Assembly (NCBI GenBank): GCA_030429665.1 | Contig: JAUIEZ010000005.1 | Span: forward strand, 1-64,000 | Reading direction: 5' to 3' | Source of the DNA: Gammaproteobacteria bacterium | Lineage (GTDB): Bacteria; Pseudomonadota; Gammaproteobacteria; Arenicellales; CAJQKF01 | DNA: 64,000 bases | In this document: positions 12,798 to 35,104 of the stretch, one piece after another | Position numbering within the stretch: position 1 is the first letter of the stretch | Layout of the letters: every line of letters starts with the position of its first letter | Notes under the pieces: generated by a model | The model's input: only the letters and a program-made list of their open reading frames with translations | What the model was told of the DNA's origin: nothing | The model's database searches: none | Position numbers and translations under genes: made by a program

Positions 12798-12824
12798 GTG
12801 TTGAGGTTCCGTAGATCGATTCGT

Positions 12825-14666: not shown

Positions 14667-14687
14667 CGAGTCGTGAGTCTCCCAGGG

Positions 14688-16208: not shown

Positions 16209-16217
16209 CCGGGGCGC

Positions 16218-16694
16218 CTACAGTACGCCGCCGAGCCAGCCGGCGGGCAGCGGCACGCGCAGAGCATTGACGAAGACGTAGTACAGGAGCAGCGGGAACG
16301 ACAATGCGAGAATCGCCGACGACAGCAGGTGCGTGCGGCCGCGTGCGGCGAGCAGAAGCACGAAGATGATGATGCCCGACACCGGCACGAAACCGATGGC
16401 GTCCGCCGCCAGTATATAGAACAGCATTCCGGCCACGATCAGGGCGAACATGATCCAGCTGCCCGGGCGGCGCGCCCAGGCGTCGATCTGAATCCAGCCG
16501 GCGGCTTTCACCGTCATCAGTCCTTTCACAGTGAGCCAGGCGCCGGCACCGAACATGACCGCCAACACGGCGCGCGGAAACACCGCCGCGCCGTACTGGA
16601 CGCCGGGGACCGCGGGAAAGGTGAACGTGTTGGCGAAAAGCACCGCCGACAAGAGCATGATCAGCACGCCGCTGACGGCATCGTTGACACGCAT
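16218..16694 (-). CDS. tctB: Tripartite tricarboxylate transporter, small permease TctB
   Basis: Start at internal Met MRVNDAVSGVLIMLLSAVLFANTFTFP; four hydrophobic segments; located between TctA and TctC. Confidence 0.85.
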   Translation of the reverse strand: MRVNDAVSGVLIMLLSAVLFANTFTFPAVPGVQYGAAVFPRAVLAVMFGAGAWLTVKGLMTVKAAGWIQIDAWARRPGSWIMFALIVAGMLFYILAADAIGFVPVSGIIIFVLLLAARGRTHLLSSAILALSFPLLLYYVFVNALRVPLPAGWLGGVL

Positions 16695-16729
16695 CGAACT
16701 TCCTCGCGCTCCCCGAATGACCGATCCGC

Positions 16730-17731
16730 CTAGTTCACCATTCCGGCGGCCTTCATCACCACGCAGATGTTCTCGTCCTCGCCCTGGTGGAAGGCGCGCG
16801 CTTCCTCGGGACCCTTCCAGTTCTTGGAGAAGCCGCGCTCCTGCATGAAAGCGGTAAACGATTCGCTGTCGAAGGCTGCCTTGACTGCTGCCACCAGGTT
16901 GTCGCGCATCTCGTCGGACAGTCCGGCGGGCGCGCCGATCATGCGCCATGTGCTCACCTGCCAGTCAGTGCCGGTGGCTTCCTCGAGTGTCGGCACCTCC
17001 GGCAACTGGGAAAAGCGCGACTCGCCCATGGTGGCCAGGGCCTTCAGCTTGCCGGCCTGGATCAGCTGCAGTCCGCTCGACAGCGGCGGCGTGACAACGT
17101 CGACGGCGCCCGCCGCGGCGTCCTTCAACGACGGCGCCTCGCCCTGGGACGGCACCCACGGAACCTTGTTCGGATCGACGCCTTCCTTGTAGAGCCAGCC
17201 CGCGAAGGCCAGGTGCCAGATACCGCCCGCGCCGGTGCCCGAGGCCTTGAAGGTGTTCGCCGGCTCGGCCTTGATGGCGTCGAGCAATTCCGATGCACTG
17301 TTGAACGGCGATTCGGCGTTGACGATCAGCCCGGCCGGCGCCGAGTTCAGCAGGGCGATCTGGGTAAACTTCTCGTAGGTGAGATCGGTGACGCCCTTGC
17401 ACACCAGCTGCGAAAGATCGACGTTTATGGTGCCGATGGTGTACCCGTCCGGCGCCGCGGCGGCCAAGGCCGCGTGACCGATGACGCCGGAGCCTCCGGT
17501 TCGGTTCACCACGTTGACGGGTTGTCCGAGGTTCGCTTCCATGCTGGCGGCCAGCGCCCGCGCCACTTGGTCGGTACCGCCTCCCGCCCCCCACGGAACG
17601 ATCAGGGTAATCGGCCGCTCGGGCCACGCGGCATGGGCGTTGGCGCTGCCGAGCATCAGCGCGCCGGCCATGAATACGCTGCCGGCGACAGCCAATACGC
17701 CACGTCGATTGAACCGGTTCAAGGGTTTCAT
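16730..17731 (-). CDS. tctC: Tripartite tricarboxylate transporter substrate-binding protein TctC (Bug family)
   Basis: 333 aa; signal peptide; WPERPITLIVPWGAGGGTDQVARALA, NRTGGSGVIGHAALA. Confidence 0.93.
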   Translation of the reverse strand: MKPLNRFNRRGVLAVAGSVFMAGALMLGSANAHAAWPERPITLIVPWGAGGGTDQVARALAASMEANLGQPVNVVNRTGGSGVIGHAALAAAAPDGYTIGTINVDLSQLVCKGVTDLTYEKFTQIALLNSAPAGLIVNAESPFNSASELLDAIKAEPANTFKASGTGAGGIWHLAFAGWLYKEGVDPNKVPWVPSQGEAPSLKDAAAGAVDVVTPPLSSGLQLIQAGKLKALATMGESRFSQLPEVPTLEEATGTDWQVSTWRMIGAPAGLSDEMRDNLVAAVKAAFDSESFTAFMQERGFSKNWKGPEEARAFHQGEDENICVVMKAAGMVN

Positions 17732-18098: not shown

Positions 18099-18890
18099 GT
18101 GAAATCCGGCAAAACCGGGGGCGCGGCGCGCGGAGGCTCCATCCAGTCTCTCGACCGCGCCTTTTCCATTCTCGAAGAAATCGCCCGCCACGAGCACGGT
18201 CTCGGGCTGGTCGAGCTCAGCCGCGCCGTGGACCTGCATACCAGCACCGTGCACCACCTGTGCAAGACGCTGTTGAGCCTCGGATACCTGAGTCAAAGCG
18301 AGTCCGGCAAGCGCTACCGGATCGGGCGCGGCGTCTTCGCCCTGGCCTCGTCCTGCGCCGACGAGATCGAACTGGCGAGAACGGCCCGTCCATTCCTCGC
18401 CGAGCTGTCCAAGAGCACCGGCGAGAGCGCCCATTTCGCGGTTTGGGCCGGCAACCAGGTGCTGATCCTGGAGCGCGCCTACAGCGACAGCGCGTTCCAG
18501 ATGAACGAGCGCGCCGGCATGCTGCGACCGGCGCACTGCACGGCGATCGGGAAGGCACTGCTGTCGGGGCTGGAACCGGCCGCGCTCGACGAACGGCTGG
18601 ACGAGATGACGCTCACGCCACACGCGCCGAACACGATCGTCGACAAGGAACAATTGCGCCGGGAAATAGAAAGAATCCGCGCCGACGGCGTCGCCTACGA
18701 CGATTCGGAATACAACGAGGAAGCCCGCTGCATCGCAGCGCCGGTGCGCGACTTCCGGAACCGCGTGGTCGGCGCTATCGGGTTTTCCGGACCGGTATGG
18801 CGCGTGTCGTTGAGCGACCTGAACAAGTACAGCGCCCTGACACGCGAGAAGTCCCGATCACTGTCGCTCGCGCTGGGCTGGCGCGAGTAG
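18099..18890 (+). CDS. IclR family transcriptional regulator
   Basis: 263 aa; GGSIQSLDRAFSILEEIARHEHGLGLVELSRAVDLHTSTVHHLCKTL. Confidence 0.93.
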   Translation: MKSGKTGGAARGGSIQSLDRAFSILEEIARHEHGLGLVELSRAVDLHTSTVHHLCKTLLSLGYLSQSESGKRYRIGRGVFALASSCADEIELARTARPFLAELSKSTGESAHFAVWAGNQVLILERAYSDSAFQMNERAGMLRPAHCTAIGKALLSGLEPAALDERLDEMTLTPHAPNTIVDKEQLRREIERIRADGVAYDDSEYNEEARCIAAPVRDFRNRVVGAIGFSGPVWRVSLSDLNKYSALTREKSRSLSLALGWRE

Positions 18891-20201
18891 GCCCGAACCG
18901 CGATCGCGCCTGTGTACCGGCGCGCCCATCGAGTACACCCGTTGCACGGCACGGTCGTCACCGAGCATCAAGGTGGCGAAGAGCAGTTCGTCGATGCCGT
19001 CGCAATGATCGGCGCGGTGGGCCATGGCGGGCGTCGCGCGCGGATCGAGCACCACGAAGTCGGCCTCCTTTCCCGTTTCGAAGCTGCCGATCACGTCGTC
19101 GAGCCCGAGCGCCCGCGCGCCGCCGAGGGTTGCGAGGTATAACGCGCGCGCCGGGTCGAGGTTCTGACCCTGCAACTGGAGCACCTTGTAGGCCTCGTTG
19201 ACGGTGCGCAGCAGCGAGAAGCTGTCGCCGCCGCCGACATCGGTGCCCATGCCCACCTTCACGCCGTGGCGGTCGGCCCCGGCGAGGTCGAACAGGCCGC
19301 TGCCGATGAATAGGTTGGAGCAGGGACAAAAGGCCACGGCGCTGCCGGTGTCGGCAAGACGACCCCATTCGCGGTCGGCGAGATGCAGGCCGTGGGCGAA
19401 CACCGAGTGCGCGCCGAGCAGGCCGTGGTGGTCGTAGACATCCACGTAATCGAGTCGATCCGGAAACAGCCGCTTCACCCACGCGCACTCTTCCCGGTTC
19501 TCCGACAGGTGGGTCTGCAGGCGAACGCCGGGATGTTCGGCGAGCAGGCGACCGGCGACGGCGAGTTGCTCGTCCGACGAGGTCGGCGCGAAGCGCGGCG
19601 TCACCGCGTAGAGCAGCCGCCCGCGGCCGTGCCAGCGTTCGATGAGGACGGCGCTGTCGTGGTAGGACGATTCCGCCGTGTCCAGCAGGTAATCGGGCGC
19701 ATGGCGGTCCATCATCACCTTGCCGCAGAGCATGCGCAGTCCGCGGGCCGAGGCGGCCTCGAAGAAGGCGTCCACCGACTGCGGATGCACGCTGCCGAAC
19801 ACCAGCGCGGTGGTGGTGCCGTTGCGCAGCAGTTCGTCGAGAAACAACTCGGCCGCGTCGCGCGCCCGCCCTTTATCCCCGAAACGGCCCTCGGCCGGAA
19901 ACGTGTAGCGCTCCAGCCATTCGAGCAGTTGCGTGCCGTACGCGGCGACGATACCGCTTTGCGGGTAATGAATGTGGGTGTCGACGAACCCGGGCACGAT
20001 GAGCGCGTCGCCGTGATCGACGATCTTGGTGGCGCCCTCCAGGGCATCGAGCACCGACGCGGCATCGCCCGCCGCCTCCACCCGGCCTTCGCGGTCCACC
20101 AGCAGCGCGCCGTCGGCAAAATACTCGAGCTTGCCACCCGCCGCCGGATCCCCGGTCAGGTGCAGGACGCCGCCGCGGTGCGCGGCGCGTGGGTTGGCCA
20201 T
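18858..20201 (-). CDS. guaD: Guanine deaminase
   Basis: PGFVDTHIHYPQ, YTFPAEGRFGD, LQTHLSENREE, FCPCSNLFIGSGLFDL, VGMGTDVGGGDSFSLLRT; start trimmed to ATG at 20201. Confidence 0.92.
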   Translation of the reverse strand: MANPRAAHRGGVLHLTGDPAAGGKLEYFADGALLVDREGRVEAAGDAASVLDALEGATKIVDHGDALIVPGFVDTHIHYPQSGIVAAYGTQLLEWLERYTFPAEGRFGDKGRARDAAELFLDELLRNGTTTALVFGSVHPQSVDAFFEAASARGLRMLCGKVMMDRHAPDYLLDTAESSYHDSAVLIERWHGRGRLLYAVTPRFAPTSSDEQLAVAGRLLAEHPGVRLQTHLSENREECAWVKRLFPDRLDYVDVYDHHGLLGAHSVFAHGLHLADREWGRLADTGSAVAFCPCSNLFIGSGLFDLAGADRHGVKVGMGTDVGGGDSFSLLRTVNEAYKVLQLQGQNLDPARALYLATLGGARALGLDDVIGSFETGKEADFVVLDPRATPAMAHRADHCDGIDELLFATLMLGDDRAVQRVYSMGAPVHRRDRGSGLLAPAQRERQ

Positions 20202-20208
20202 GACGGGG

Positions 20209-20550
20209 TCAGGATCCTCGATAGGTGGAGTAGCCGTAGGGCGAGAGCAGCAGCGGGATGTGGTAGTGCTGGCCGTCGCCGTCGACATTGAACACCACGT
20301 CCACCCATGGATAGAAGTGCTTGTGGCCGCGGTTACGGAAATAGCCGCTCACCTCGAAGCGCATGCGGTAGGTGCCGTCGTCGAGCACCGCGCCGGCATC
20401 CATCAGGTCGCTGATGCGGCCGTCGCCGTCGGTGGCGCCGTGGGCGATGACCTCGTCGCGCTCGTCCACGACGCGCGACAGCGTCACCTTCACGCCCTCG
20501 GCCGGACAGCCGCGCGCGGTATCGAGGATATGGGTGGTGATCTGGCTCAT
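20209..20550 (-). CDS. uraH: 5-hydroxyisourate hydrolase (transthyretin-like)
   Basis: 113 aa; TTHILDTARGCPAEGVKV; C-terminal YHIPLLLSPYGYSTYRGS signature. Confidence 0.95.
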   Translation of the reverse strand: MSQITTHILDTARGCPAEGVKVTLSRVVDERDEVIAHGATDGDGRISDLMDAGAVLDDGTYRMRFEVSGYFRNRGHKHFYPWVDVVFNVDGDGQHYHIPLLLSPYGYSTYRGS

Positions 20551-20596: not shown

Positions 20597-21100
20597 TCAC
20601 CCCAGCATCTTCTCGAGACGCAGCAGCGTGATCTTCAGTTGTTCCGCGGCCGCGTTGCGCATTTCCTCTTCGCGACTATTGTTTATGCGCGACAGCAATA
20701 GCGCAAGCATCTCTTCCGCGCTCTTGCCACTGGCGAAGACGATGAAGATGAACCCGAATCGTTTTTCGTACTCGGCGTTGAGTCGCGCCAGCGCCTCGAG
20801 CGTGGCGGCGTCGGCGCCGTTCACCGCGCCCTGCTCGTTGCCGGCCATGGCCTTGGTGGCGGCGTATTTCTCGCGCAGGGAGTCGATGTCGCCGATTTTC
20901 GGATGGGCCGCGAACGCTTCCAGCCAGTCGGCCTCGCCGGTTGCGGCCCACGCCGAGCGGGCGCTCTCGAAAAGATCCCCGGGCGAGGCAAACGGCCGTC
21001 GCGCCAGCATGCCGTCGACCCAGCGCGTCGACGCGCAACAATGACCGAGCCGTTCCGTCGCGGCACCGTCATCCAGCGCATTGAACGCCGCCAGTCTCAA
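20597..21100 (-). CDS. uraD: 2-oxo-4-hydroxy-4-carboxy-5-ureidoimidazoline (OHCU) decarboxylase
   Basis: 167 aa; FAAHPKIGDIDSLREKYAATKAMAGNEQGAVNGA, NAEYEKRFGFIFIVFASGKSAEEMLALL. Confidence 0.93.
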   Translation of the reverse strand: MRLAAFNALDDGAATERLGHCCASTRWVDGMLARRPFASPGDLFESARSAWAATGEADWLEAFAAHPKIGDIDSLREKYAATKAMAGNEQGAVNGADAATLEALARLNAEYEKRFGFIFIVFASGKSAEEMLALLLSRINNSREEEMRNAAAEQLKITLLRLEKMLG

Positions 21101-21918
21101 CGCCGCACCAGTTCCAGGGCCGCCGGCGGATGTGCCGCGCCGTGCAATCGATCCCGCCGCCGCATCAGGTCCGCGGCCACCGACACCGCGATCTCCATCG
21201 GTGCCTTGCCCCCCGTATAGGGCAACCCGATGGGACAGTGCAGCCGATCGAGTTCCTCCGCGGTGAAACCTCGCTCGGCCAGCCGCTTGCCGAACCGCGC
21301 GGCCTTGGAACGCGAGCCGATCAGGCCGAGGTAGTCAAAATCGCCGCGCGAGAGCACCGCGTCGCAGATCTCGAGATCCAGGGCGTGATCGTGGGTCATC
21401 ACCAGGTGCCAGGCGCCGGCCGGGGCTTCGGCGACCTCGCCCGCCGAGGCCCGGGTGCGCACGACGGTGACGTTGTCGGGGACCTTGTCGGGAAACATGT
21501 CGTCACGCTCGTCGATCCAGCGCACCAGGCAGTCTATATCGCCGAGCACCTTGACCAGCGCCTTTGCCACGTGTCCCGCGCCGTGCAGCTCGACGCGCAT
21601 CCGGCAGGCCTCGATGCGCTCGAGCAGCACGCGAACGTAACCGCCGCAGCACTGGCCCAGCTTCGGCCCTAGCGGAAAATCCTCCAACCGCTTGCGGGCG
21701 CCCGGCTCGGCCAGCAGCTCCCGCGCCATGTCGACGGCGCGATGCTCGAGTTCGCCGCCGCCGATGGTGTCGTAGAGCGCCTCCTTGGTGACCACCATCT
21801 TGCCGTCGTCGTCGCGAGGCGACGAACCACGGGTCTCGACCAGGGTAACGAGCACGAACGACCGGCCGGCCGCGTGCAGGTCTGCCACCGCGCGCTGCCA
21901 GCGCACGCTACGATCCAC
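21097..21918 (-). CDS. xdhC: Xanthine dehydrogenase accessory protein XdhC
   Basis: FVLVTLVETRGSSPRDDDGKMVV, FGAGHVAK-like LHGAGHVAKALV, YLGLIGSRSKAARFGKRL, PIGLPYTGGKAPMEIAVSVAADL; proposed GTG start. Confidence 0.88.
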   Translation of the reverse strand: MDRSVRWQRAVADLHAAGRSFVLVTLVETRGSSPRDDDGKMVVTKEALYDTIGGGELEHRAVDMARELLAEPGARKRLEDFPLGPKLGQCCGGYVRVLLERIEACRMRVELHGAGHVAKALVKVLGDIDCLVRWIDERDDMFPDKVPDNVTVVRTRASAGEVAEAPAGAWHLVMTHDHALDLEICDAVLSRGDFDYLGLIGSRSKAARFGKRLAERGFTAEELDRLHCPIGLPYTGGKAPMEIAVSVAADLMRRRDRLHGAAHPPAALELVRR

Positions 21919-24253
21919 GCGCGGCCTCCCGGGAGCGAATCTCCTCGATCGCGGCGAGCACGTACTCGCAGGTTGCCGGCGCGTCGAGGCGCGGCGCCAG
22001 CCGGTAGTCGACCAGCGACGACACCGCGTCCCGAATGGCACACCAGGCGCTGATGGCGAGCATCAGCGGCGGTTCGCCCACTGCCTTGGAGTGGTATATC
22101 GTCTCCTCGCGGTTCGGCACCCCCTCCAGCAGGGAGACGTTGAAGTGCTCGGGCACGTCGGCCACCGCCGGGATCTTGTAGTTGGCCGGCGCATTGCTGA
22201 GCAGGCGACCCGACGCGTCCCACTTCAGTTCCTCGGTGGTAAGCCAGCCCAATCCTTGCACGAAGCCGCCCTCGATCTGGCCGATATCGACGGCCGGGTT
22301 GATGGAATTGCCGACGTCGTGAAGGATGTCGACCGCAAGCAGCTTGTACTCGCCCGTGAGAATGTCGACGACCACCTCGCTGACTGCAGCGCCGTTGGCG
22401 AAGTAGAAGAACGGCCGGCCGCGGCCGGTGTCGCGGTCGTAGTGGATCGCGGGCGTCTTGTAGAAGCCGGTCGCCGAAAGCTGTACCCGGGCCAGCCAGG
22501 CGTCGCGGGCGGTATCGGCGAAGGAGGCGTCGTAGTCGCGACAACGCACGCGGCCATCCGCGAACACCACCTCGCCGGCGTCGGCGTACTGGCGGTTGGC
22601 GACGAAGGCCGCGATTCGTTCGCGGATGGCGCGCGCCGCGTTGCGCGCGGCCATGCCGTTCAGGTCGGTGCCCGACGAAGCTGCGGTGGGCGCCGTGTTC
22701 GGCACCTTGTCGGTGCGCGTGGCCGAAACGCCCACGGCGGAGACGTCGACGCCGAACTCGTCGGCGACAATTTGCCGGACCTTGGTGAACAGTCCCTGCC
22801 CCATCTCCGTGCCGCCGTGGTTGAGGTGCACGGTGCCGTCGGTGTAGACGTGTACCAGCGCACCGGCCTGGTTGAGGTGGGTCACGGTGAAGGAAATGCC
22901 GAACTTGACCGGCGTCAGGGCGATGCCACGGCGCAGCACGCCGCCGGCGGCGTTGAATGTCGCGATCTCCTCGCGGCGCTCGCGGTAGCGCGCGTCGCGC
23001 TCCAGGCGATCGATGATCTCCGGCACCGTGAAGTGGGTTACCTCCTGGTGGTAGGGCGTGAGCTGCCCGGCGTCGCCCCGGTACAGGTTGCGCTTGCGAA
23101 CGTCCAGCGGATCGAGGCCGGTGGCGCGCGCGATCTCGTCGATGACCAATTCCATGACGATCATGCCCTGGGGACCGCCGAAGCCGCGAAACGCGGTGTT
23201 GGATACCGTGTGAGTGCGCCAGCGGTGTCCTTCCACGTGCACGTTCGGCAAGTAGTAGGCGTTGTCGCAATGAAACATGGCGCGGTCGACGATGGCGTCG
23301 GACAGGTCCGGCGAGCAGCCGCAGCGTCCCGACAGGTCGTAGTCGATGCCGAGAATGCGCCCGTCGTCGTCGAAGCCGACGTCGTAACGGTTCAGGAAGT
23401 CGTGGCGCTTGCCGGTCATCACCATGTCGTCGGCCCGAGGCAGGCGGCACTTGGCGGGCCGGCCGGTATGTCGCGCCACCAGCGCCGCGAGGCAGGCCCA
23501 CGGATTGGCGTGGGTCTCCTTGCCGCCGAAGCCGCCGCCCATGCGCCTCACCTCGGCGGTCACCGCCTGCATCGGCAGGCCGAGCACCTCGGCGACCAGC
23601 TTTTGCACCTCGGTGGGGTTCTGGTTGGAAGTCACCACGTGCATGCCGCCGTCGTCGCGCGGCACGGCCAGCGACGCCTGCCCTTCCAGGTAGAAATGCT
23701 CCTGCCCGCCGACGCGCATCGAGCCGGTGACGCGGCGCGGCGCGGCGGTAATGGCGGCGGCCGGGTCGCCCCGATGCATGACGTGGGGCGGACGCACGGT
23801 AATGCCGGCTTCGATGGCCTGCGCCACGTCGACCGCCGGCGCTTCCTCGTCGTACTCGACGACCGCCAGGGTGGCGGCGCGACGCGCCGACAGCAAGTCG
23901 GTGGCGGCGACCACGAACAACGGCTGTCCATGGTGCTGGATCTCGTCGGCCACCAGCAGCGGATCGCCCGGGAATACCGGTCCGATGTCCAGGTGGCCGG
24001 GCACGTCGGCCGCGGTAAGCACGCACACCACGCCGGGTGCCGCGCGTACCGCGTCCAGGTTCAGGGAGCGCACCCGTCCGCGCGCGATGTCGGTTCGGCC
24101 TATCGCGAGGTGCAGCATGCCATCGTACTCGGGCAGGTCGTCCACGTAGTGGGCGCGGCCGGTGACATGGCCCACCGCGCTGTCGTGGGGCAGCGCCTCG
24201 CCGGCGGCGTGCGCGCGCGCGTCGATTCTCTCGATGCCGTTGTCAAATTTCAT
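21908..24253 (-). CDS. xdhB: Xanthine dehydrogenase, molybdopterin-binding subunit
   Basis: 781 aa; GRAHYVDDLPEYDGMLHLAIGRT, GGGFGGKETH, LNHGGTEMGQGLFTKV, GEPPLML. Confidence 0.95.
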   Translation of the reverse strand: MKFDNGIERIDARAHAAGEALPHDSAVGHVTGRAHYVDDLPEYDGMLHLAIGRTDIARGRVRSLNLDAVRAAPGVVCVLTAADVPGHLDIGPVFPGDPLLVADEIQHHGQPLFVVAATDLLSARRAATLAVVEYDEEAPAVDVAQAIEAGITVRPPHVMHRGDPAAAITAAPRRVTGSMRVGGQEHFYLEGQASLAVPRDDGGMHVVTSNQNPTEVQKLVAEVLGLPMQAVTAEVRRMGGGFGGKETHANPWACLAALVARHTGRPAKCRLPRADDMVMTGKRHDFLNRYDVGFDDDGRILGIDYDLSGRCGCSPDLSDAIVDRAMFHCDNAYYLPNVHVEGHRWRTHTVSNTAFRGFGGPQGMIVMELVIDEIARATGLDPLDVRKRNLYRGDAGQLTPYHQEVTHFTVPEIIDRLERDARYRERREEIATFNAAGGVLRRGIALTPVKFGISFTVTHLNQAGALVHVYTDGTVHLNHGGTEMGQGLFTKVRQIVADEFGVDVSAVGVSATRTDKVPNTAPTAASSGTDLNGMAARNAARAIRERIAAFVANRQYADAGEVVFADGRVRCRDYDASFADTARDAWLARVQLSATGFYKTPAIHYDRDTGRGRPFFYFANGAAVSEVVVDILTGEYKLLAVDILHDVGNSINPAVDIGQIEGGFVQGLGWLTTEELKWDASGRLLSNAPANYKIPAVADVPEHFNVSLLEGVPNREETIYHSKAVGEPPLMLAISAWCAIRDAVSSLVDYRLAPRLDAPATCEYVLAAIEEIRSREAARGS

Positions 24254-25679
24254 AGCGGCTCACCCGGTGCACAGGTTGGTCGGCGGCCAGTTCCAGGCAG
24301 GCGCGTTCGATCATGCCGCCGGCGACCGCCAGGCGGTATCGGGCCGACGCGCGGACATCGTCGATGGGTTGGAAGTCCGCGCCGATGGCGGCGCGCCCCG
24401 CCGCCGCCGCCTCGGGGGGCGCCTTGCCGGCCATGGCGGACTCGACGTTCGCGGCGCGCTTCGGCGTCGCCGCCATGCCGCCGAAGGCCACCGAGACGTT
24501 CGAGATCAGGCCGCCTTCGTACGTGAACAGGAACACGCCCAGCGCGGTGGAGATGTCGTCGTCGAAACGCTTGGAGTTCTTGCAGGCGACGAGCCGCTTG
24601 CCCGGCCGCGCGCGCGGGATCTCCACCGATTCGATGAACTCGCCGCACTCGAGAACCGTTTGCCGGTAACCGGTGAAAAAGTCCTCGACGGCCAGGCGGC
24701 GCGTCGAATCGCCGCGGCGCAGGTTCACGCTCGCGTCGAGCGCGATCAACACCGGTGGCGTGTCGCCTATCGGCGAGGCGTTGGCGATGTTGCCGCCGAG
24801 GCTGCCCTGGTTGCGAATGGGCACCGATCCCAGGCGCAGGAGAACTTCCGCGAGGTCCGGGTACTCCGCCGTCAACACGTCGAAGAAACGGCTGTATCGG
24901 GCGGCGGCGCCGATCACCAGCGCGTCGTCCGCTACCTCGATGCGATTCAGCTCGGCGACGTTGCCCAGGTAGACGAGTCGCGGCAGTTGCTTGAGTTGCT
25001 GAGTCGTCTCCAGCGCCAGGTCGGTGGCGCCGCAAAACGGCCGCGCCTCCGGGTGTTCCGCGAGCAGCCGGGCGACGGCATCGACGTCCGCCGGGGCGTG
25101 GAACCCACCGGCGGGCAGCTCGCAGTCCGCCGAGGGCGCGATTTCGGACAGGCGCCTGACAATCTCGCCGCGGGATTCGCTGAACCGGTCCGGCGCCGGG
25201 TCGGCGCAGGCGGCGAGGCCGGCGTCGACGATGGGGCGATACCCGGTGCAACGGCACAGGTTGCCGGCCAGCGCGTTATGCACGGCCTCGCGGTCGGCCG
25301 GCGCGCCGCGCTTGTAGAGCGCGAACAGGGACATGACGAAGCCGGGCGTGCAGAAACCGCACTGCGAACCGTGGCAATCGACCATGGCCCGCTGCACCGG
25401 GTGCAGGACGTCGCCGTCGGCGAGGTCCTCCACGGTAATCACCTGCCGGCCATGCACCGCGCCAAGGTAAGTGATGCAACTGTTGACGGTCTCGTAGGCG
25501 AGCCCGCCGTTGCCGTCCGGCGCGGCGAGCACCACGGTGCAGGCGCCGCAATCGCCCGAGGCGCACCCTTCCTTCGTGCCGGTGCGTCGACGGTCCTCGC
25601 GCAGGAAATCCAGCAGGGTACGATCGGCGCGAAAGGCGTCGAGCCGGACGGTTTCGTCATTGAGGAGAAATTCGATCAT
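24243..25679 (-). CDS. xdhA: Xanthine dehydrogenase small subunit (2Fe-2S and FAD domains)
   Basis: 478 aa; [48 protein letters not shown]-domain [20 protein letters not shown]. Confidence 0.95.
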
Positions 25680-25756
25680 GGAGTCCCACCCGGTTGGCGC
25701 GCGCGGGCCGGCCGAGACGTCGTCGGCCGGTTCGAGAATCCCAGCTTATCCATTTT

Positions 25757-25772
25757 TTGACCATTCGGTCAA
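25757..25772. promoter_or_regulatory. RutR-type operator candidate upstream of xdhA
   Basis: TTGACCATTCGGTCAA, one mismatch from palindrome TTGACCA-N2-TGGTCAA; on the minus strand it contains TTGACC followed after 16 nt by GATAAG. Confidence 0.7.
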
Positions 25773-25819
25773 GTTTTCGCCGCGCGGCGCGGCGTCGTCG
25801 AAACCGACCCGCGAACGGC

Positions 25820-26374
25820 TCAGCAGATGGTGCACGGCGCGCCGTGCCGCGCGAGCAGGCGGCCCATTCGCGCGTCGCCGCCCTGGGCGTGGTCGAGCGC
25901 GGTGAACCCGAAATCGTCGATTGCGCCCGGATCGACGCCGTGCGCCAACAAGAGCTTCGCCACCACGACGTGACGCGTCGGCGCCACCACGTGCAGCAGC
26001 GTGGCGCCGTTGGCGTCGCGTTGCATGACGCTGGCGCCGTGATCCAGGAGCAGCGCCGTCACCTCGAGATGCCCCTGCTCCACCGCGCGGCGAAGCGGCG
26101 AGAACCCGTACCGGTCCGGCGCGTCGACGTTCGCGCCGCGATCGAGCAACAACTTCGCGACCGCCGCGTGGCCGGCGTAGGCGGCCGCGTGCAGCGGTGT
26201 CTGGCCGCTGACCGGCCCGCGCGCGAGCCGGTCGTCGACGTCGAAACCGGCATCCAGCAGGTCCCGAACGGTATCCTCGAGACCGGACAGGGCCGCCGCG
26301 TGCAGCGGGTTGCTGTCCGTCATTTGGCTTCCGTTGCGCGCCATCGCGGGTAATATCGGCATTTTCATCGTCAC
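25820..26374 (-). CDS. Ankyrin-repeat protein
   Basis: NPLHAAALSGLEDTVRDLLDAGFDVDD...TPLHAAAYAGHAAVAKLLLDRGANVD...; about 4-5 ANK repeats; true start may be an internal Met. Confidence 0.85.
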   Translation of the reverse strand: MTMKMPILPAMARNGSQMTDSNPLHAAALSGLEDTVRDLLDAGFDVDDRLARGPVSGQTPLHAAAYAGHAAVAKLLLDRGANVDAPDRYGFSPLRRAVEQGHLEVTALLLDHGASVMQRDANGATLLHVVAPTRHVVVAKLLLAHGVDPGAIDDFGFTALDHAQGGDARMGRLLARHGAPCTIC

Positions 26375-26507
26375 GGCCCCTGCACTGCGAGCACTGTGTG
26401 TGCCAGTATACGCTCAGCGAAAGTCCGTGCACCCGCGCCGCCACCCGCCATCGAGCCTGCGGCGGCGCGGATCCGCGTTCGAACGAACCCGAAAACGAGC
26501 CAAGTTT

Positions 26508-26537
26508 TTGACTATTTGGTCAACTTTTGCACATAAT
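26508..26537 (+). promoter_or_regulatory. Sigma70-like promoter overlapped by RutR-type operator, upstream of nucleoside ABC operon
   Basis: Operator TTGACTATTTGGTCAA (26508..26523); TTGACT (26508) - 18 nt - CATAAT (26532..26537). Confidence 0.65.
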
Positions 26538-26607
26538 GCCGCGTCCACCCTGGCGGTGACCGGTATCGGAGCACGGTTGCGCGCGGTGATTCCGGTGGCA
26601 GTTTGCC

Positions 26608-28218
26608 GTGTCAAACCGGCATTCGACAGACCACCAAGAACAAGATCGGCAAACATCGGTCGAGGAGGAGCGCGCGATTAACGGTCACGCAACCACGACG
26701 CCGCTGCTGGCATTGTCCGGCATCACTAAGTCGTTTCCTGGCACCCTGGCCAACGATCACGTCGATTTCGACGTCGCGCCCGGCGAGATTCATGCGCTCC
26801 TCGGCGAGAACGGCGCCGGCAAGAGCACGCTGGTCAAGATCATCTACGGCATCCTCAAGGCCGACGCCGGCCAGATCGCCTGGAAGGGCGAGCCGGTCGT
26901 CATCGACAGCCCGAATACCGCGCGGCGGTTCGGCATTGCCATGGTGTTTCAGCACTTCTCGCTGTTCGATGCACTGACGGTCGTGGAGAACATCGCGCTC
27001 GGCATGGACGAGCCCGGCGACATGGCCGCGCTCGAGGCGCGCATCGAGCAGGTGTCGCACAGCTACGGCCTGCCCCTGCACCCGCGCCGCCACGTTCACT
27101 CCCTGTCGGTCGGCGAACGGCAGCGCATCGAGATCGTTCGCTGCCTGTTGCAGGAGCCGTCTCTGCTGGTGATGGACGAGCCCACCTCGGTGCTCACGCC
27201 GCAGGAGGTCGAAAAGCTGTTCGAGACCCTGCGCCGGCTGTCCGACGAGGGCATGTCCATCCTCTACATCAGCCACAAGCTCGACGAGATCCGCGCCCTG
27301 TGCCACCGCGCGACGATCCTGCGGCTGGGGCGGCGCGTGGCCGATGCCGTTCCTTCCGAAGAGACGTCGCGCAGTCTCGCGGCCATGATGATGGGCGAGG
27401 AACTGCAGGGCGAGGCGCGACCGCCGACAGCGACCGTCGGCGAGGTGCGCCTGCGGGTTTCGCATCTCAGCCTGCCCGCGGCGGACGAGTTCGGCGTCGA
27501 CCTGAAGGACGTCAGCTTCGAAGTGCGCGGCGGCGAGATTCTCGGCATCGCCGGCGTCGCCGGCAACGGTCAGAACGAGTTGACCGACGCGCTGTCCGGC
27601 GAACGACCCAGCGTGTCGCCCGGCACCATCGTCATCGACGAAACGGAGTGCGGCCTGAAAGGACCCGACGCGCGGCGCGCGCTGGGCCTTTGCTGCGTTC
27701 CCGAACAGCGCCTGGGCCACGGCGCGGTACCCGACATGTCGCTGGCCGAGAACAGCTACCTCACTGCTCACCACCGCATGGGGCTGACGCGCCACGGCAT
27801 CATGCGAAGCGATGCCCGCGACACCTTCGCCGATCGCGTCATCGATTCCTTCCGTGTGAAGTGCAACGGCCACCAGTCGCAGGCGTCCAGCCTCTCGGGA
27901 GGCAACTTGCAGAAGTTCATCGTCGGTCGAGAGATCTCGCAGGATCCCGGTGTGGTGGTGGTCTCGCAGCCTACCTGGGGAGTGGACGCCGGATCCGCCG
28001 CGGCCATCCAGTCCGAACTGATCAAGCTCGCCGAGGCCGGCAGCGCGGTACTGGTCATCTCCCAGGATCTCGACGAGCTGATGCAGATATCGAACCGCAT
28101 CGCGGCGATCTGCGCCGGCGCGCTGTCGGAGGTTATCGGCATCGAACAAGCGACCGTCGAGGGCATGGGCCTGATGATGGGCGGCGCCAGCCTGGAGGAT
28201 ACCCATGCTGAGGCTTGA
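26608..28218 (+). CDS. ABC transporter ATP-binding protein, BMP/nucleoside uptake type (two ATPase domains)
   Basis: GTG start; LLGENGAGKSTLVKIIYGIL, LSVGERQRIEIVRCLLQEPSLLVMDEPTSVL; second domain LSGGNLQKFIVGREI. Confidence 0.9.
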   Translation: MSNRHSTDHQEQDRQTSVEEERAINGHATTTPLLALSGITKSFPGTLANDHVDFDVAPGEIHALLGENGAGKSTLVKIIYGILKADAGQIAWKGEPVVIDSPNTARRFGIAMVFQHFSLFDALTVVENIALGMDEPGDMAALEARIEQVSHSYGLPLHPRRHVHSLSVGERQRIEIVRCLLQEPSLLVMDEPTSVLTPQEVEKLFETLRRLSDEGMSILYISHKLDEIRALCHRATILRLGRRVADAVPSEETSRSLAAMMMGEELQGEARPPTATVGEVRLRVSHLSLPAADEFGVDLKDVSFEVRGGEILGIAGVAGNGQNELTDALSGERPSVSPGTIVIDETECGLKGPDARRALGLCCVPEQRLGHGAVPDMSLAENSYLTAHHRMGLTRHGIMRSDARDTFADRVIDSFRVKCNGHQSQASSLSGGNLQKFIVGREISQDPGVVVVSQPTWGVDAGSAAAIQSELIKLAEAGSAVLVISQDLDELMQISNRIAAICAGALSEVIGIEQATVEGMGLMMGGASLEDTHAEA

Positions 28219-29272
28219 GCGGCGGCCGCAGAATTCCAGGACCATGATGTACCTCTCGCCGGTGTTCGCGCTCGCGCTGACGCTGGCCGCCGGCGTCGTG
28301 TTGTTCTCGATCATGCGCGTCGACCCGGCCGAAGCCCTTTACGCCTTCTTCATCGAGCCGCTCACGACGACCTACGGCATCACGGAACTCGGGGTGAAGG
28401 CCACGCCGCTGATCCTCATCGGCGTGGCGCTCGCCATCGGCTTTCGCGCCAGCGTGTGGAATATCGGCGCAGAGGGACAGCTGACGCTGGGCGCCATCGC
28501 CGGCGGCGGCGTGGGCCTGGCGCTGTATGAAGTCGAGGGGTTCTGGGTGCTGCCGCTGATGCTCGCCGCCGCCATTGCCGGCGGCATGGCGTGGGCGGCG
28601 ATTCCCGCGTTCCTTCGAACACGCTTCAACGCGAACGAGATCCTGGTCAGCCTGATGCTGACCTACGTCGCCACGCTGCTCCTGAGCTACCTCGTACACG
28701 GGCCGTGGCGCGACCCCGGCGGATTCAATTTCCCCGAATCGCGGGTCTTTCACGACGCCGCCACGCTGCCCATCATCGTCGACGGCTCGAGGCTGCACCT
28801 TGGCTTCGCCCTTGCCCTGTTCGTGGTCGTGGCCACTTGGGTGATGATCTCGCGGACCCTGATCGGCTTCCAGGTGCGCGTCATCGGCAGCGCGCCGCGC
28901 GCCGGCCAGTACGCCGGCTTCAGCCAGAACGCCATCATCTGGCTGACGCTACTGTTCGGTGGCGCCTGCGCGGGGCTGGCGGGCGTGGTGGAGGTGGCAG
29001 GCCCGATCGGCCAGTTGCTGCCGTCGATCTCGCCGGGCTACGGTTTTACCGCCATCATCGTCGCCTTCGTCGGCCGACTGCACCCGCTGGGCGTCCTGTT
29101 GGCAGGCCTGTTGATGGCGCTTTCGTATCTCGGCGGCGAAAACGCCCAGATCAGTCTCAACCTGCCGCTGGCGGTGACCGGCGTCTTCCAGGGCCTGCTG
29201 CTGTTCATGTTGCTCGCCTGCGACGTACTCATCCGCTACCGCATCCGTCTTCGCACCAGGAGCGCGACATGA
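28205..29272 (+). CDS. ABC transporter permease (nucleoside/BMP type)
   Basis: 355 aa multi-TM; ALAIGFRASVWNIGAEGQLTLGAIA. Confidence 0.9.
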   Translation: MLRLERRPQNSRTMMYLSPVFALALTLAAGVVLFSIMRVDPAEALYAFFIEPLTTTYGITELGVKATPLILIGVALAIGFRASVWNIGAEGQLTLGAIAGGGVGLALYEVEGFWVLPLMLAAAIAGGMAWAAIPAFLRTRFNANEILVSLMLTYVATLLLSYLVHGPWRDPGGFNFPESRVFHDAATLPIIVDGSRLHLGFALALFVVVATWVMISRTLIGFQVRVIGSAPRAGQYAGFSQNAIIWLTLLFGGACAGLAGVVEVAGPIGQLLPSISPGYGFTAIIVAFVGRLHPLGVLLAGLLMALSYLGGENAQISLNLPLAVTGVFQGLLLFMLLACDVLIRYRIRLRTRSAT

Positions 29273-30195
29273 GCCTGGAAATACTCGTAGCCACCATTCT
29301 CACGATCATCACCGCGGCCACGCCCCTGGTGTTCGCCGCGACGGGAGAGTTGATCACGGAGAAAGCCGGCGTGCTCAATCTCGGCGTGGAAGGCATGATG
29401 CTGACCGGCGCCGTGACCGGCTTCGCAACGGTGTTCTTCATCGACAATGCCGTCCTCGCCTGCCTCGCCGCGATGGCCGCCGGCATGCTCACGGCGCTGA
29501 TCTTCGCCTTCCTCGTACTGGGACTGCAGGCCAGCCAGGTGGCGACGGGGCTGGCGCTGACCATCTTCGGCATCGGCTTGTCGGCACTGCTGGGTCAGAA
29601 CATGGTGGGCATCGCCTATGCCGGGCTGCCCAAGCTCTACATTCCATTCGTTTCGGACCTGCCGGTGCTGGGACCGCTGCTGTTCAATCACGACGCGCTC
29701 GTCTACCTGTCGCTGGCGCTGCCGCTGGCGGTCGCCTGGTTTCTCTACCGCACCCGCGCCGGACTGATCCTGCGCGCCGTGGGAGACTCCCACGACGCCG
29801 CTCATGCCATCGGCTACCCGGTGATCGCCATCCGCTACATGGCCACGCTGTTCGGCGGCGCCATGGCGGGATTGGCGGGCGCCTACCTGTCATTGTCCTA
29901 CTCCCCCATGTGGGTGGAGAACATGAGCGCCGGCCGCGGCTGGATCGCGCTGGCGCTGGTGGTGTTCGGCACCTGGCGACCCTGGCGCGTATTCCTTGGT
30001 GCCTACCTTTTCGGCGGCATCACCATACTTCAACTCCACGCCCAGGCGTTCGGCATCGCGGTGGCCTCGCAGTTCATGTCGATGCTGCCGTACATCGCCA
30101 CCATCGTGGTGCTGGTACTGATTTCCCGGGACCCGACACGCATCCGGCTCAATGCGCCGGCCTGCATAGGCAAGCCGTTCCACCCGGCCGCGTGA
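29269..30195 (+). CDS. ABC transporter permease (nucleoside/BMP type)
   Basis: ATG 29269 inside ORF 28591..30195; GELITEKAGVLNLGVEGMMLTGAV. Confidence 0.9.
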   Translation: MSLEILVATILTIITAATPLVFAATGELITEKAGVLNLGVEGMMLTGAVTGFATVFFIDNAVLACLAAMAAGMLTALIFAFLVLGLQASQVATGLALTIFGIGLSALLGQNMVGIAYAGLPKLYIPFVSDLPVLGPLLFNHDALVYLSLALPLAVAWFLYRTRAGLILRAVGDSHDAAHAIGYPVIAIRYMATLFGGAMAGLAGAYLSLSYSPMWVENMSAGRGWIALALVVFGTWRPWRVFLGAYLFGGITILQLHAQAFGIAVASQFMSMLPYIATIVVLVLISRDPTRIRLNAPACIGKPFHPAA

Positions 30196-30297: not shown

Positions 30298-31380
30298 ATG
30301 CACAAGCGAGCATTCATCAAGGTACTCTCCGGGACGCTGGCGGCCGCGGTTCTCGCCACCGGCCCGGTGAGCGCCCAGGACCCCACCAAGGTGGCTTTCG
30401 TCTACGTCGGCCCGGTGGGCGACCATGGCTGGACCTACCGTCACGACGTCGGCCGCAAGGCCGTAGAGGCGGAATTCGGCGACAAGGTGGAAACCACCTA
30501 CGTCGAAAGCGTGGCCGAGGGCGCCGACGCCGAACGCGTGATCCGCAACCTGGCGTCGAAGGGCAACGATCTCGTCTTCACCACCTCGTTCGGCTACATG
30601 AATCCGACCGCCAAGGTGGCCAAGCAGTTTCCCGACGTGAAGTTCGAGCACGCCACCGGCTACAAGCAGGCCGCGAACCTCGCGACCTACTCGGCACGCT
30701 TTTACGAGGGCCGCGCGGTGATCGGCACCATCGCCGGGCACATGACGAAGTCGGGCATCATCGGCTACATCGGCTCCTTTCCGATCCCCGAGGTGGTGCG
30801 CGGCATCAACGCCTTCACCATCGCCATGCGCAAGGTCAGGCCCGATGCCCAGGTGAAGGTCGTGTGGGTGAACAGCTGGTACGACCCGGGCAAGGAAGGC
30901 GACGCCGCCAAGGCGCTCATCGACCAGGGCGCCGACATCATTGCCCAGCACACCGACTCCCCGGCGCCGCTACAGGTGGCCGAGCAGCGCGGCGTCTACG
31001 CCTTCGGACAGGCATCGGACATGCGCGCCTTCGCGCCCAAGGCCCAGCTCACGGCGATCGTGGACGAATGGAACTACTACTACGTCGACCGCACGCGCGC
31101 GGTGATGGAGGGGACCTGGCAGTCCCAGGACGTATGGCTTGGCCTGAAGGAGGGCATGGTGGAAATCGCCCCCTACGGCGACGCCGTGCCCGAGGACGTG
31201 CGTGCCGCCGCCGACAGCGTCAAGCAGGCGATCATCGACGGCAGCCTGCACCCGTTCCAGGGGCCCATCGCCAACCAGGCCGGTGAAGTGGTGGTGGCCG
31301 AGGGCGAGACCGTCAGCGACAAGGACCTGCTCGGCATGAACTGGTACGTCGAGGGCGTGCAGGGAGAGCTACCCAAGTAG
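30298..31380 (+). CDS. BMP family ABC transporter substrate-binding protein
   Basis: Signal peptide MHKRAFIKVLSGTLAAAVLATGPVSAQ; KVAFVYVGPVGDHGWTYRHDVGRKAVE; FTTSFGYMNPT. Confidence 0.92.
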   Translation: MHKRAFIKVLSGTLAAAVLATGPVSAQDPTKVAFVYVGPVGDHGWTYRHDVGRKAVEAEFGDKVETTYVESVAEGADAERVIRNLASKGNDLVFTTSFGYMNPTAKVAKQFPDVKFEHATGYKQAANLATYSARFYEGRAVIGTIAGHMTKSGIIGYIGSFPIPEVVRGINAFTIAMRKVRPDAQVKVVWVNSWYDPGKEGDAAKALIDQGADIIAQHTDSPAPLQVAEQRGVYAFGQASDMRAFAPKAQLTAIVDEWNYYYVDRTRAVMEGTWQSQDVWLGLKEGMVEIAPYGDAVPEDVRAAADSVKQAIIDGSLHPFQGPIANQAGEVVVAEGETVSDKDLLGMNWYVEGVQGELPK

Positions 31381-31460: not shown

Positions 31461-32810
31461 TTGTCGAAACGCACCTGGATTCAATCGCCGCTGGCGGTGC
31501 TGACACCGGACGGTTCAGCGTGCTCGGGCGTGGTGATCAGCGGCGGCGTCATCGAGTCGGTCCTGGGTCCCGGGCAGACACCACCCGGTGAGTTGGACGA
31601 AAAGGTCGACGCGCGCGACCTCGTCGTACTGCCCGGCCTCGTCAACACCCACCACCACTACTACCAGACCCTCACCCGCGCGCTGCCCGCGGCGCTGGAC
31701 AAGGAACTGTTCTCCTGGCTGAAGAGCCTCTACCCGGTGTGGGCGCGGCTCACCCCGGAGATGATTCACGCCTCGACGCGACTGGCCTGTGCCGAGCTGC
31801 TGCTTTCCGGATGCACGACCAGCGCCGACCATCACTATCTGTATCCGCGCGGCGTACCCGATGCGTTCGATATTCAGGCCGACGCCTGCGCGTCGACGGG
31901 CATGCGTCACGTGCTCACGCGCGGCTCCATGAGCCTGTCCGAGGACGATGGCGGCCTGCCGCCGCGGAGCACGGTACAGGACGAGGACACGATCCTTGCC
32001 GACTGCGAACGCGTCATCGCCCGATATCACGACAAGGAACACGGATCGAAGATACAGGTGGCGTTGGCGCCTTGCTCTCCGTTCAGCGTTTCACCGCAAT
32101 TGATGCGCGAAAGCGCGGCGCTGGCGCGACACCATGGCGTTCGGCTGCACACTCACCTGGCCGAAACGCGCGACGAAACCGACTACTGCCTGCGCGTCAC
32201 CGGCCTTCGACCGCTCGACCTGCTCGAGTCGGTGGACTGGCTGACGGGCGACACGTGGCTCGCTCACGGCATTCACTTCGACGACGACGAGATCGCGCGC
32301 CTGGGCGCGGCCGGCACCGGCATCAGCCACTGCCCGTCGTCCAACATGATCCTCGCCTCTGGCATGTGCCGCACCCGGGAGCTGGAGGCGGCCGGCGCGC
32401 CGGTAGGGCTCGCGGTGGACGGCTCGGCCTCGAACGACGGTTCCAACATGATCGCCGAGTGCCGCCAGGCCCTGTTGTTGCAGCGACTGCAATACGGCGC
32501 CGCGCGGATCTCCCATCGCGATGCGCTGCGTTGGGCGACGCGCGGTTCCGCGCGCTGCCTGGGGCGCGATGACATCGGCGAGATCGCGCCGGGACGCTGC
32601 GCGGACCTGGCCCTGTTCGCCCTCGACGAGGTGCGCTTCTCGGGCGCCGCGGATCCCCTGGCATCCCTGTTGCTGTGCGGCGCGCAACGTGCCCGCCACG
32701 TGATGGTGGCCGGCGAGTGGATGGTGCGTGACGGCGAACTCGTCTCCGTGGATATCACGGACCTGCAGCATCGGCATCGAGCGCTGGCCTCGGAACTGGT
32801 GTCCGCGTGA
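31461..32810 (+). CDS. 8-oxoguanine deaminase (amidohydrolase superfamily)
   Basis: TTG start; VVLPGLVNTHHHYYQTLTRALP, LLSGCTTSADHHYLYP, LTRGSMSLSEDDGGLPP, CHCPSSNM-like ISHCPSSNMILASG, VDGSASNDGSNM; strongly resembles the Pseudomonas 8-oxoguanine deaminase family as recalled. Confidence 0.85.
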   Translation: MSKRTWIQSPLAVLTPDGSACSGVVISGGVIESVLGPGQTPPGELDEKVDARDLVVLPGLVNTHHHYYQTLTRALPAALDKELFSWLKSLYPVWARLTPEMIHASTRLACAELLLSGCTTSADHHYLYPRGVPDAFDIQADACASTGMRHVLTRGSMSLSEDDGGLPPRSTVQDEDTILADCERVIARYHDKEHGSKIQVALAPCSPFSVSPQLMRESAALARHHGVRLHTHLAETRDETDYCLRVTGLRPLDLLESVDWLTGDTWLAHGIHFDDDEIARLGAAGTGISHCPSSNMILASGMCRTRELEAAGAPVGLAVDGSASNDGSNMIAECRQALLLQRLQYGAARISHRDALRWATRGSARCLGRDDIGEIAPGRCADLALFALDEVRFSGAADPLASLLLCGAQRARHVMVAGEWMVRDGELVSVDITDLQHRHRALASELVSA

Positions 32811-33439
32811 TGAGCCGGGGTTCGTCGGTAGGACGCATAAGGGCGCGTAACCAGCGCCGCATCCTCGAGGCCGCGGAGAAGGAGTTCGACCGGCACGGAT
32901 TCGGCGGAGCGCGCATGCAACGCATCGCCGATCGCGCCGGCCTGCCCAAGGCGAACATCCACTACTACTTTCGCAACAAGCTGGCGCTGTATCGAGCCGT
33001 GCTCGACGGCGTCGTGGCAATGTGGAACGAAGCATTCGACCGCATTTCCGCCGACGACGATCCGGCCGAGGCGCTGGCCGCCTACATCCGCGCCAAGATG
33101 GACTATTCGCGTACCCGCCCGGCGGCGGCGCGCATCTTCACCGGCGAGATCATGCGCGGCGCGCCGCACCTGAAGGATTACTTGCGTGGGGACCTCAGGA
33201 ACTGGTTCGGCGAACGCACCGAGGTAATCCAGCACTGGGTCGACAGCGGCCGCATGGACGCGGTGGACCCGCATCACCTGGTGTTCCTGATCTGGAGCGC
33301 CACGCAGCACTACGCCGACTACGACGCCCAGATCAGCGCGCTGTACGGCAAGGCGAAGCTGACCCGCGCCGACTACGACGCGGCGGCCGATTCACTGGTG
33401 AAGATCATACTCAAGGGATGCGGGCTGGAACCGAAGTAG
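32807..33439 (+). CDS. TetR family regulator, RutR-like
   Basis: RRILEAAEKEFDRHGFGGARMQRIADRAGLPKANIHYYFRNKLALYRAVL; C-terminal region resembles the RutR/YcdC group; start may be ATG at 32810. Confidence 0.82.
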   Translation: MMSRGSSVGRIRARNQRRILEAAEKEFDRHGFGGARMQRIADRAGLPKANIHYYFRNKLALYRAVLDGVVAMWNEAFDRISADDDPAEALAAYIRAKMDYSRTRPAAARIFTGEIMRGAPHLKDYLRGDLRNWFGERTEVIQHWVDSGRMDAVDPHHLVFLIWSATQHYADYDAQISALYGKAKLTRADYDAAADSLVKIILKGCGLEPK

Positions 33440-33577: not shown

Positions 33578-35104
33578 ATGACCGCGCGAAAACGAACGAG
33601 CCATTCGGCAACCATCGCCTGGTACGCCGCCGTCATCTTCCTGAGTTCGGCGTGCCTGCTGATCCTAGAGATCGTCGCCAGCCGACTGCTGGCGCCCTAC
33701 GTCGGCGTATCGCTCTACACCTGGACCGCGATCATCGGTGTAATCCTGGCCGGCTTGTCGCTGGGAAACTGGTTGGGCGGCGCGTGGGCCGACCGGGGCG
33801 CCGGACCGATCGCGGCGGGATGGACGCTGGTGGCGTCGGGCGCGGTGACGTTGCTCGTACCGCTCGTGCTGACGGCGATCGCCGACTACGTGCAGGCCCG
33901 GCAGGTGTCGCTGGTAGGCGCGAGCCTGGTCTACGTCAGCGCGCTGTTCCTGTTGCCGGCGCTGGTGCTGGGGGTCATCACGCCGCTCCTGACGACGCTC
34001 TCACTGACCATGAGTTCGCGGCCGGGCCACGTGGTCGGTACGATGCACGCGCTCGCGGCGCTGGGAAGCATCTGCGGCACGTTCGCGGCCGGTTTCTACC
34101 TCGTACCGTGGTTCGGCACCCGCAATATCGTCGTCGCCACCGGTGTCGCGCTGATCGCCATGGGCGTCGTGTTCCTGCTTCGGCGCCCGCGCGCCGCCTT
34201 CTCGGCCGTGGTGGCGGCGGGCGCGCTCGCCGCCATGCTCGCCGCGGGCAACGCGCTGCGCAATCCCTGCGACACCGAGAGCCTTTATTACTGCATCCGC
34301 GTGGTGGACGAGCCCACGCCCTACGGCGAGGTGCGCACCCTGGTGCTCGACCACATGGTGCACAGTCACAATCATGCGGGGGATCCCGAGTTGCTGGTCG
34401 CCACCTACGCGCATCTCATGGACGAGATGATGCGCCTGCGACTGCCCGCCCTCGACGTACCGCGCGTGTTTTTCGCCGGCGGCGGCGCCTACACACAGCC
34501 GCGCGCACTGGCGGCCCGCCGCCCGGCCGTGCATATCGAGGTCGCCGAGATCGACCCGGCAGTCACCGAGACCGCGCGCGAACGACTGTTCGTCGACACC
34601 GCGTCGATGATCGTGCATGACGTGGACGCCCGCATCCAGCTACCGCTGGCGCTGCCGCATTTCTACGATGCGATCGTTACCGACGTCTTTCACGACGTTG
34701 CGGTGCCCTACCACCTGACCACGGCCGAGTATGCCGATATCGTCAAGTCGCGCCTCGTGCCGGGTGGACTCTACCTCGTGAACCTGGTCGACGTGTTTCC
34801 CGACTCCAAACTGGTCAAGGCCATCGTCAAGACGCTCGAGGAACAATTCGAGCACGTCCAGGTATGGCTCGAGGCGCCGCCCGACCGTCCCGGCCGCATC
34901 ACCTACGTGGTTTCGGCAACCGACGGCGCACCGTTTCCGCCCCGCATCAGCGCACGGTACGGGCTGGCGCGAAACTGGTACGACTTCGCCGAACCGGTCA
35001 AGGACGTGGGCACGCCAATGAGCGAGATCCCGGTTCTCAGCGACGACTACGCGCCGGTCGAACGCCTGGTCTCGACATTGTTCTGGAGCCAGATGGGACT
35101 GTAA
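33578..35104 (+). CDS. Fused MFS-like membrane domain/spermidine synthase-like protein
   Basis: N-terminal TM domain LLILEIVASRLLAPYVGVSLYTWTAIIGVILAGLSLGNWLGG; C-terminal spermidine synthase fold with VEIAEID-like IEVAEIDPAV and YDAIVTDVF. Confidence 0.85.
   Translation: MTARKRTSHSATIAWYAAVIFLSSACLLILEIVASRLLAPYVGVSLYTWTAIIGVILAGLSLGNWLGGAWADRGAGPIAAGWTLVASGAVTLLVPLVLTAIADYVQARQVSLVGASLVYVSALFLLPALVLGVITPLLTTLSLTMSSRPGHVVGTMHALAALGSICGTFAAGFYLVPWFGTRNIVVATGVALIAMGVVFLLRRPRAAFSAVVAAGALAAMLAAGNALRNPCDTESLYYCIRVVDEPTPYGEVRTLVLDHMVHSHNHAGDPELLVATYAHLMDEMMRLRLPALDVPRVFFAGGGAYTQPRALAARRPAVHIEVAEIDPAVTETARERLFVDTASMIVHDVDARIQLPLALPHFYDAIVTDVFHDVAVPYHLTTAEYADIVKSRLVPGGLYLVNLVDVFPDSKLVKAIVKTLEEQFEHVQVWLEAPPDRPGRITYVVSATDGAPFPPRISARYGLARNWYDFAEPVKDVGTPMSEIPVLSDDYAPVERLVSTLFWSQMGL

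Follow-up and report, generated by a model that had tools for sequence, protein, structure and literature searches.

A RutR-like TetR regulator and two predicted operators at a purine-catabolic locus of a gammaproteobacterium

A stretch of 64,000 nucleotides from contig JAUIEZ010000005.1 of the gammaproteobacterial assembly GCA_030429665.1 (hereafter the window) carries a xanthine dehydrogenase (xdh) gene cluster, a divergent cluster for a nucleoside-type transporter (nup), and a gene starting at position 32807 for a RutR-like TetR regulator, referred to here as the 32807 protein. Two palindromic boxes resembling the operator of Escherichia coli RutR were identified upstream of the two clusters, and comparative sequence analysis makes it highly probable that they are the sites of the 32807 protein and that it regulates both operons. 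RutR regulons have been described in 68 genomes (PMC5343134), and E. coli RutR is reported to have uracil, not thymine, as its ligand under physiological conditions (PMC6245113). No paper tying a RutR-type protein to the control of xanthine dehydrogenase was found in a search that stopped short of the target tables of the regulon study (PMC5343134), which may list purine genes.

Genes and predicted operators of the locus

The locus consists of two opposed gene runs whose genes overlap or are closely spaced, and each run presumably forms an operon. The run on the minus strand extends from xdhA to the guanine deaminase gene and comprises xdhA for the xanthine dehydrogenase small subunit (24243-25679; TIGR02963, 567 bits, cut-off 467), xdhB for the molybdopterin subunit (21908-24253; TIGR02965, 1207 bits, above the cut-off), xdhC for an accessory protein (21097-22041; TIGR02964, 287 bits, above the cut-off), whose real start is probably within the frame, and the genes of an OHCU decarboxylase of urate degradation (20597-21100; PF09349, E 9.7e-45) and of guanine deaminase (18858-20288; TIGR02967, 585 bits, above the cut-off). 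The run on the plus strand extends from the ABC ATPase gene to tetR and includes a nupA-like ABC transporter ATPase (26608-28218; PF00005, syntenic in relatives, start codon uncertain), a nupB-like permease (28205-29272; syntenic homologues in relatives), a nupC-like permease (29269-30195; assigned from its reading frame and syntenic homologues), a Bmp/PnrA-type, purine-nucleoside-like substrate-binding protein (30298-31380; PF02608, E 8.5e-56), 8-oxoguanine deaminase (31461-32810; NF006055, 678 bits, cut-off 532) and, as the last gene, the RutR-like tetR (32807-33439; PF08362, E 1.6e-55), which overlaps the deaminase gene by 4 bases.

Operator 1, TTGACCATTCGGTCAA, lies at 25757-25772 on the minus strand, reads TTGACCGAATGGTCAA on the xdhA strand, and differs by one mismatch from the palindrome TTGACCA-N2-TGGTCAA. 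The edge nearer to xdhA lies 78 bp from the ATG of that gene at 25679, and the left half of the operator doubles as the putative xdhA -35: TTGACC (25772-25767, minus strand) is followed after 16 nt by GATAAG (25750-25745), the weak putative -10. The initial annotation had already given this box, and its letters and coordinates proved exact; the single mismatch was reproduced by a scan of the window, and the promoter layout with its distance to xdhA was confirmed. TTGACC-N16-GATAAG was not called as a promoter in a consensus scan of 25600-26700. The rutA-rutR site of E. coli, TGGACTAAACGGTCAA, is similar to this box.

Operator 2, TTGACTATTTGGTCAA, was not listed in that annotation; it lies upstream of the nup operon at 26508-26523 on the plus strand and is also one mismatch away from the palindrome. 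Its sequence contains the -35 of a sigma-70-type promoter, TTGACT-N18-CATAAT (26508-26537, plus strand; 10/12 matches), which was the only promoter-like match called in the same interval. Operator 2 very likely serves the operon divergent from xdh, with its nucleoside-type ABC transporter, 8-oxoguanine deaminase and tetR itself. An ankyrin-repeat protein gene (25820-26374, minus strand) sits between the two operators; it looks like an insertion between divergent promoters, because the nearest relative (L050) has no gene between xdhA and nupA, the two boxes being 33 bp apart there.

The RutR-like regulator and its purine-linked clade

The 32807 protein was assigned to the TetR_C_3 (YcdC/RutR-like) family with 187 bits against a cut-off of 25, and to TetR_N with 50.7 against 24, and it scored under both RutR equivalog cut-offs (TIGR03613, 197 against 368; NF011584, 171 against 230). 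The 8 best PDB matches of its confident AlphaFold model (pLDDT 92) were all E. coli RutR chains (TMq 0.83-0.90), and the fold is that of RutR. Other TetR proteins are present in the genome, among which it is the sole RutR-like one. Uracil is contacted in E. coli RutR by W77, Y97, W167, Q171 and Q179, and K52 and K62 bind DNA (PMC10891134); all seven residues (E. coli numbering) are kept in the 32807 protein. As regards RutR in the strict sense, two boxes of the TTGACCA-N2-TGGTCAA type with one mismatch each are present, the neighbours are purine and not rut or pyd genes, and the protein was not grouped with E. coli RutR in the tree.

For comparison, 30 loci from the order, 80 named loci and 16 loci from the class were gathered, and the purine and pyrimidine genes around each of them were mapped with the proteins of the window and of E. 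coli K-12. The neighbourhoods fall into a purine type (xdh, nup, guaD, deaminases) and a pyrimidine type (rut, or preA/preT with hydantoinase), and the regulator adjoins xdh, nup, guaD or deaminase genes in many gammaproteobacteria. The maximum-likelihood tree placed the 32807 protein in a clade of 85 members (support 97/94) with E. coli RutR outside; of these, 60 were scored as linked to purine genes, and no member was scored as linked to pyrimidine genes. One sequence with purine neighbours (L181) has a long branch and is placed outside the clade. Two genomes (G360 and G428) carry two copies each, one rut-linked and one xdh-linked, which are separate.

The clade has a signature at position 78, which follows the stacking Trp and is Leu78 in E. 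coli: Asn or Asp was found in 60/60 purine-linked members, versus Leu or Ile in those linked to pyrimidine genes, and the 32807 protein has W73-N74 there. Unassigned members agree at this position with their place in the tree; L128, within the clade, has Glu, and L185, from outside the clade, has Lys. The 32807 protein, the probable repressor, belongs to a distinct purine-linked branch of RutR, of which the literature search gave no earlier account and which we propose here as a clade; its two defining features, Asn or Asp after the stacking Trp and a box upstream of xdhA, nupA or both, are both seen in the window.

Distribution of the box in the genome and in relatives

The box was searched for in the whole genome (5,006,660 bases, 93% complete). 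The window contains 9 sites with up to 3 mismatches to TTGACCA-N2-TGGTCAA, against 1.06 expected. Just 3 places genome-wide have at most 1 mismatch, namely operators 1 and 2 and TCGACCAGGTGGTCAA, which is within a long open frame, and the sites with more mismatches are mostly in long open frames as well. The family box consensus, YTGACY-N4-RGTCAR, gave 5 matches in the genome, both operators included, and its reversed control gave 6; the two operators are spaced 751 bp apart, and the chance expectation for pairs so close is about 0.003. Of the three further consensus matches, which are not claimed as targets, one falls in a coding frame, a second at a porin-like gene's 3' end and the third at C78:16812. 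The last, TTGACCGAAAGGTCAG (G000:C78:16812-16827; L247:1501-1516), has an mtnA-like gene next to it and precedes the gene of a peptide-type ABC substrate-binding protein by about 140 bp; it may be either a third target or a chance match.

At purine-type loci of relatives, the consensus with at most 1 mismatch was counted within 300 bp upstream of each gene. It was found upstream of xdhA in 36/40 loci and of nupA in 30/34, counts that are not independent of each other where the two upstream regions overlap, as they often do. The controls gave 0/41 for xdhB, 0/39 for xdhC, 1/29 for nupB and 36/1200 (3%) for random windows.

Presence of the box also follows that of the regulator. Within the order, xdhA is preceded by the box in 10/10 genomes having a purine-type regulator versus 3/19 without one (Fisher p about 1e-5 with genomes treated as independent; the compared genomes are related, so that their counts are not fully independent). 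The only genome in this comparison with a pyrimidine-type regulator alone (G026) has no box upstream of xdhA. A RutR-type operator with xdhA as its target, as the initial annotation had put forward, is thus supported by conservation and by co-occurrence with the regulator; the RutR-like TetR that it placed at 32807 is borne out by the TetR_C_3 domain and the RutR fold, and a genome scan, which it had suggested, gave three sites at up to 1 mismatch, two of them in the purine locus.

As a separate observation, a draft genome of the window's own genus (G022), rated 100% complete, was without both the TetR gene and xdhA, which is consistent with joint loss. As for the flanks of the locus, genes for an aldehyde dehydrogenase, a thiamine-pyrophosphate enzyme and a tripartite tricarboxylate transporter (TctABC) adjoin the purine genes at 11376-17731 (minus strand). 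The neighbour of tetR at 33578-35104 (plus strand) had no Pfam match; it has a counterpart in L050 at 55% identity, and by eye its product is a membrane protein that has a domain resembling spermidine synthase.

Proposed regulation, ligand and comparison with known RutR proteins

We infer binding of the 32807 protein, and repression rather than activation. Without inducer, a TetR dimer on each box would cover the -35 of the xdh and nup promoters and keep both repressed; a purine base or breakdown product would bind at the position of uracil in E. coli RutR, and TetR would leave the DNA. Uptake by the nup ABC transporter, deamination by 8-oxoguanine and guanine deaminases, and oxidation by xdhABC and OHCU decarboxylase would then be turned on together. 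Lying at the end of the nup operon, tetR would also be repressed by its own product. The overlap with promoters is claimed for this window only, because across relatives the distance between box and -10 showed no clear peak at 16-18 nt.

Several observations weigh against this interpretation. The xdhA -10, GATAAG, matches TATAAT at 4/6 positions, and guaD upstream regions were not enriched for the family box (2/22). Three draft genomes, 80-96% complete, have the xdhA box with the regulator undetected (G060, L199; G064, L205; G063, L207), possibly through missing contigs or loss of the regulator. Residue 78 is not among the uracil contacts reported for E. coli RutR (PMC10891134), its tie to ligand choice is correlative and comes from a single split of the tree, and the conserved uracil contacts could mean that the ligand is still uracil.

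On balance we lean towards a purine as the ligand of the 32807 protein, because its purine-linked clade has a signature of its own beside the stacking Trp and because neither RutA nor PreA was found in the genome (93% complete). Residue 78 would be expected to reach this ligand. Xanthine or a close relative is the favoured candidate, attractive because the six-membered ring of xanthine presents the same dione as uracil. The initial annotation had offered either a changed ligand or pyrimidine-purine cross-control; the former fits better with the purine clade and the residue-78 signature, while the latter is disfavoured by the lack of RutA and PreA and by the 32807 protein being the sole RutR-like protein.

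Retention of uracil as the ligand of the same regulator at the same operators, with pyrimidine levels governing purine catabolism, would agree with the five kept uracil contacts and with a published description in which E. coli RutR coordinates the metabolism of pyrimidines and purines (PMC10891134). It seems unlikely given that RutA and PreA were not found, that the clade was scored with purine neighbours only and shows a consistent change at residue 78, and that rut-linked and xdh-linked copies are separate in the two genomes with both. That the boxes are sites of some other TetR-type protein of the genome, the 32807 gene being a mere neighbour, is very improbable: other TetR proteins exist in the genome and three genomes have the box with the regulator undetected, but box and regulator co-occur (10/10 versus 3/19), the same box lies beside pyd-linked RutR relatives, and it resembles the E. 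coli rutA-rutR site. A chance palindrome built on a -35 hexamer can scarcely be credited, since, although TTGACC is itself -35-like, relatives have kept both half-sites, and the box is missing from the interior of operons and infrequent in random windows.

Our preferred reading, a purine-responsive 32807 protein acting at operators 1 and 2, gives purine catabolism in many gammaproteobacteria a likely regulator together with its operators and target genes. More tentatively, a widespread RutR subfamily may have become a purine-base sensor for purine uptake and breakdown, in which the uracil-stacking pocket and the ancestral operator were kept and specificity changed mainly via Leu78 to Asn/Asp. 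The family offers a clean candidate for a switch of ligand among related repressors: its members share the operator and the stacking residues and divide cleanly at one position.

The 32807 protein shares with E. coli RutR (rutR b1013; PDB 4JYK, 6Z1B, 3LOC) the TetR_C_3 fold, the core operator, the five uracil contacts and Lys52 and Lys62. It differs in that identity is 36% over 208 aligned residues, its gene is linked to purine genes and not to rut or carAB, Asn replaces Leu at position 78, its clade is another one, and its equivalog scores are below the cut-offs. The pyd/rut-linked RutR relatives of other proteobacteria (L078, L106, L141, L147 and L190; RutR regulon of PMC5343134) belong to the same domain family, and the pyd-linked ones carry a near-identical box; unlike the 32807 protein, these relatives lie beside preA, preT, hydantoinase and amidohydrolase or rut genes and have Leu or Ile at position 78. 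The findings also bear on PA1504, near purine genes of Pseudomonas aeruginosa, a RutR-type TetR close to allantoin-inducible genes whose role was stated to be under investigation (PMC12694930), and which is likened here to the 32807 protein by that published description.
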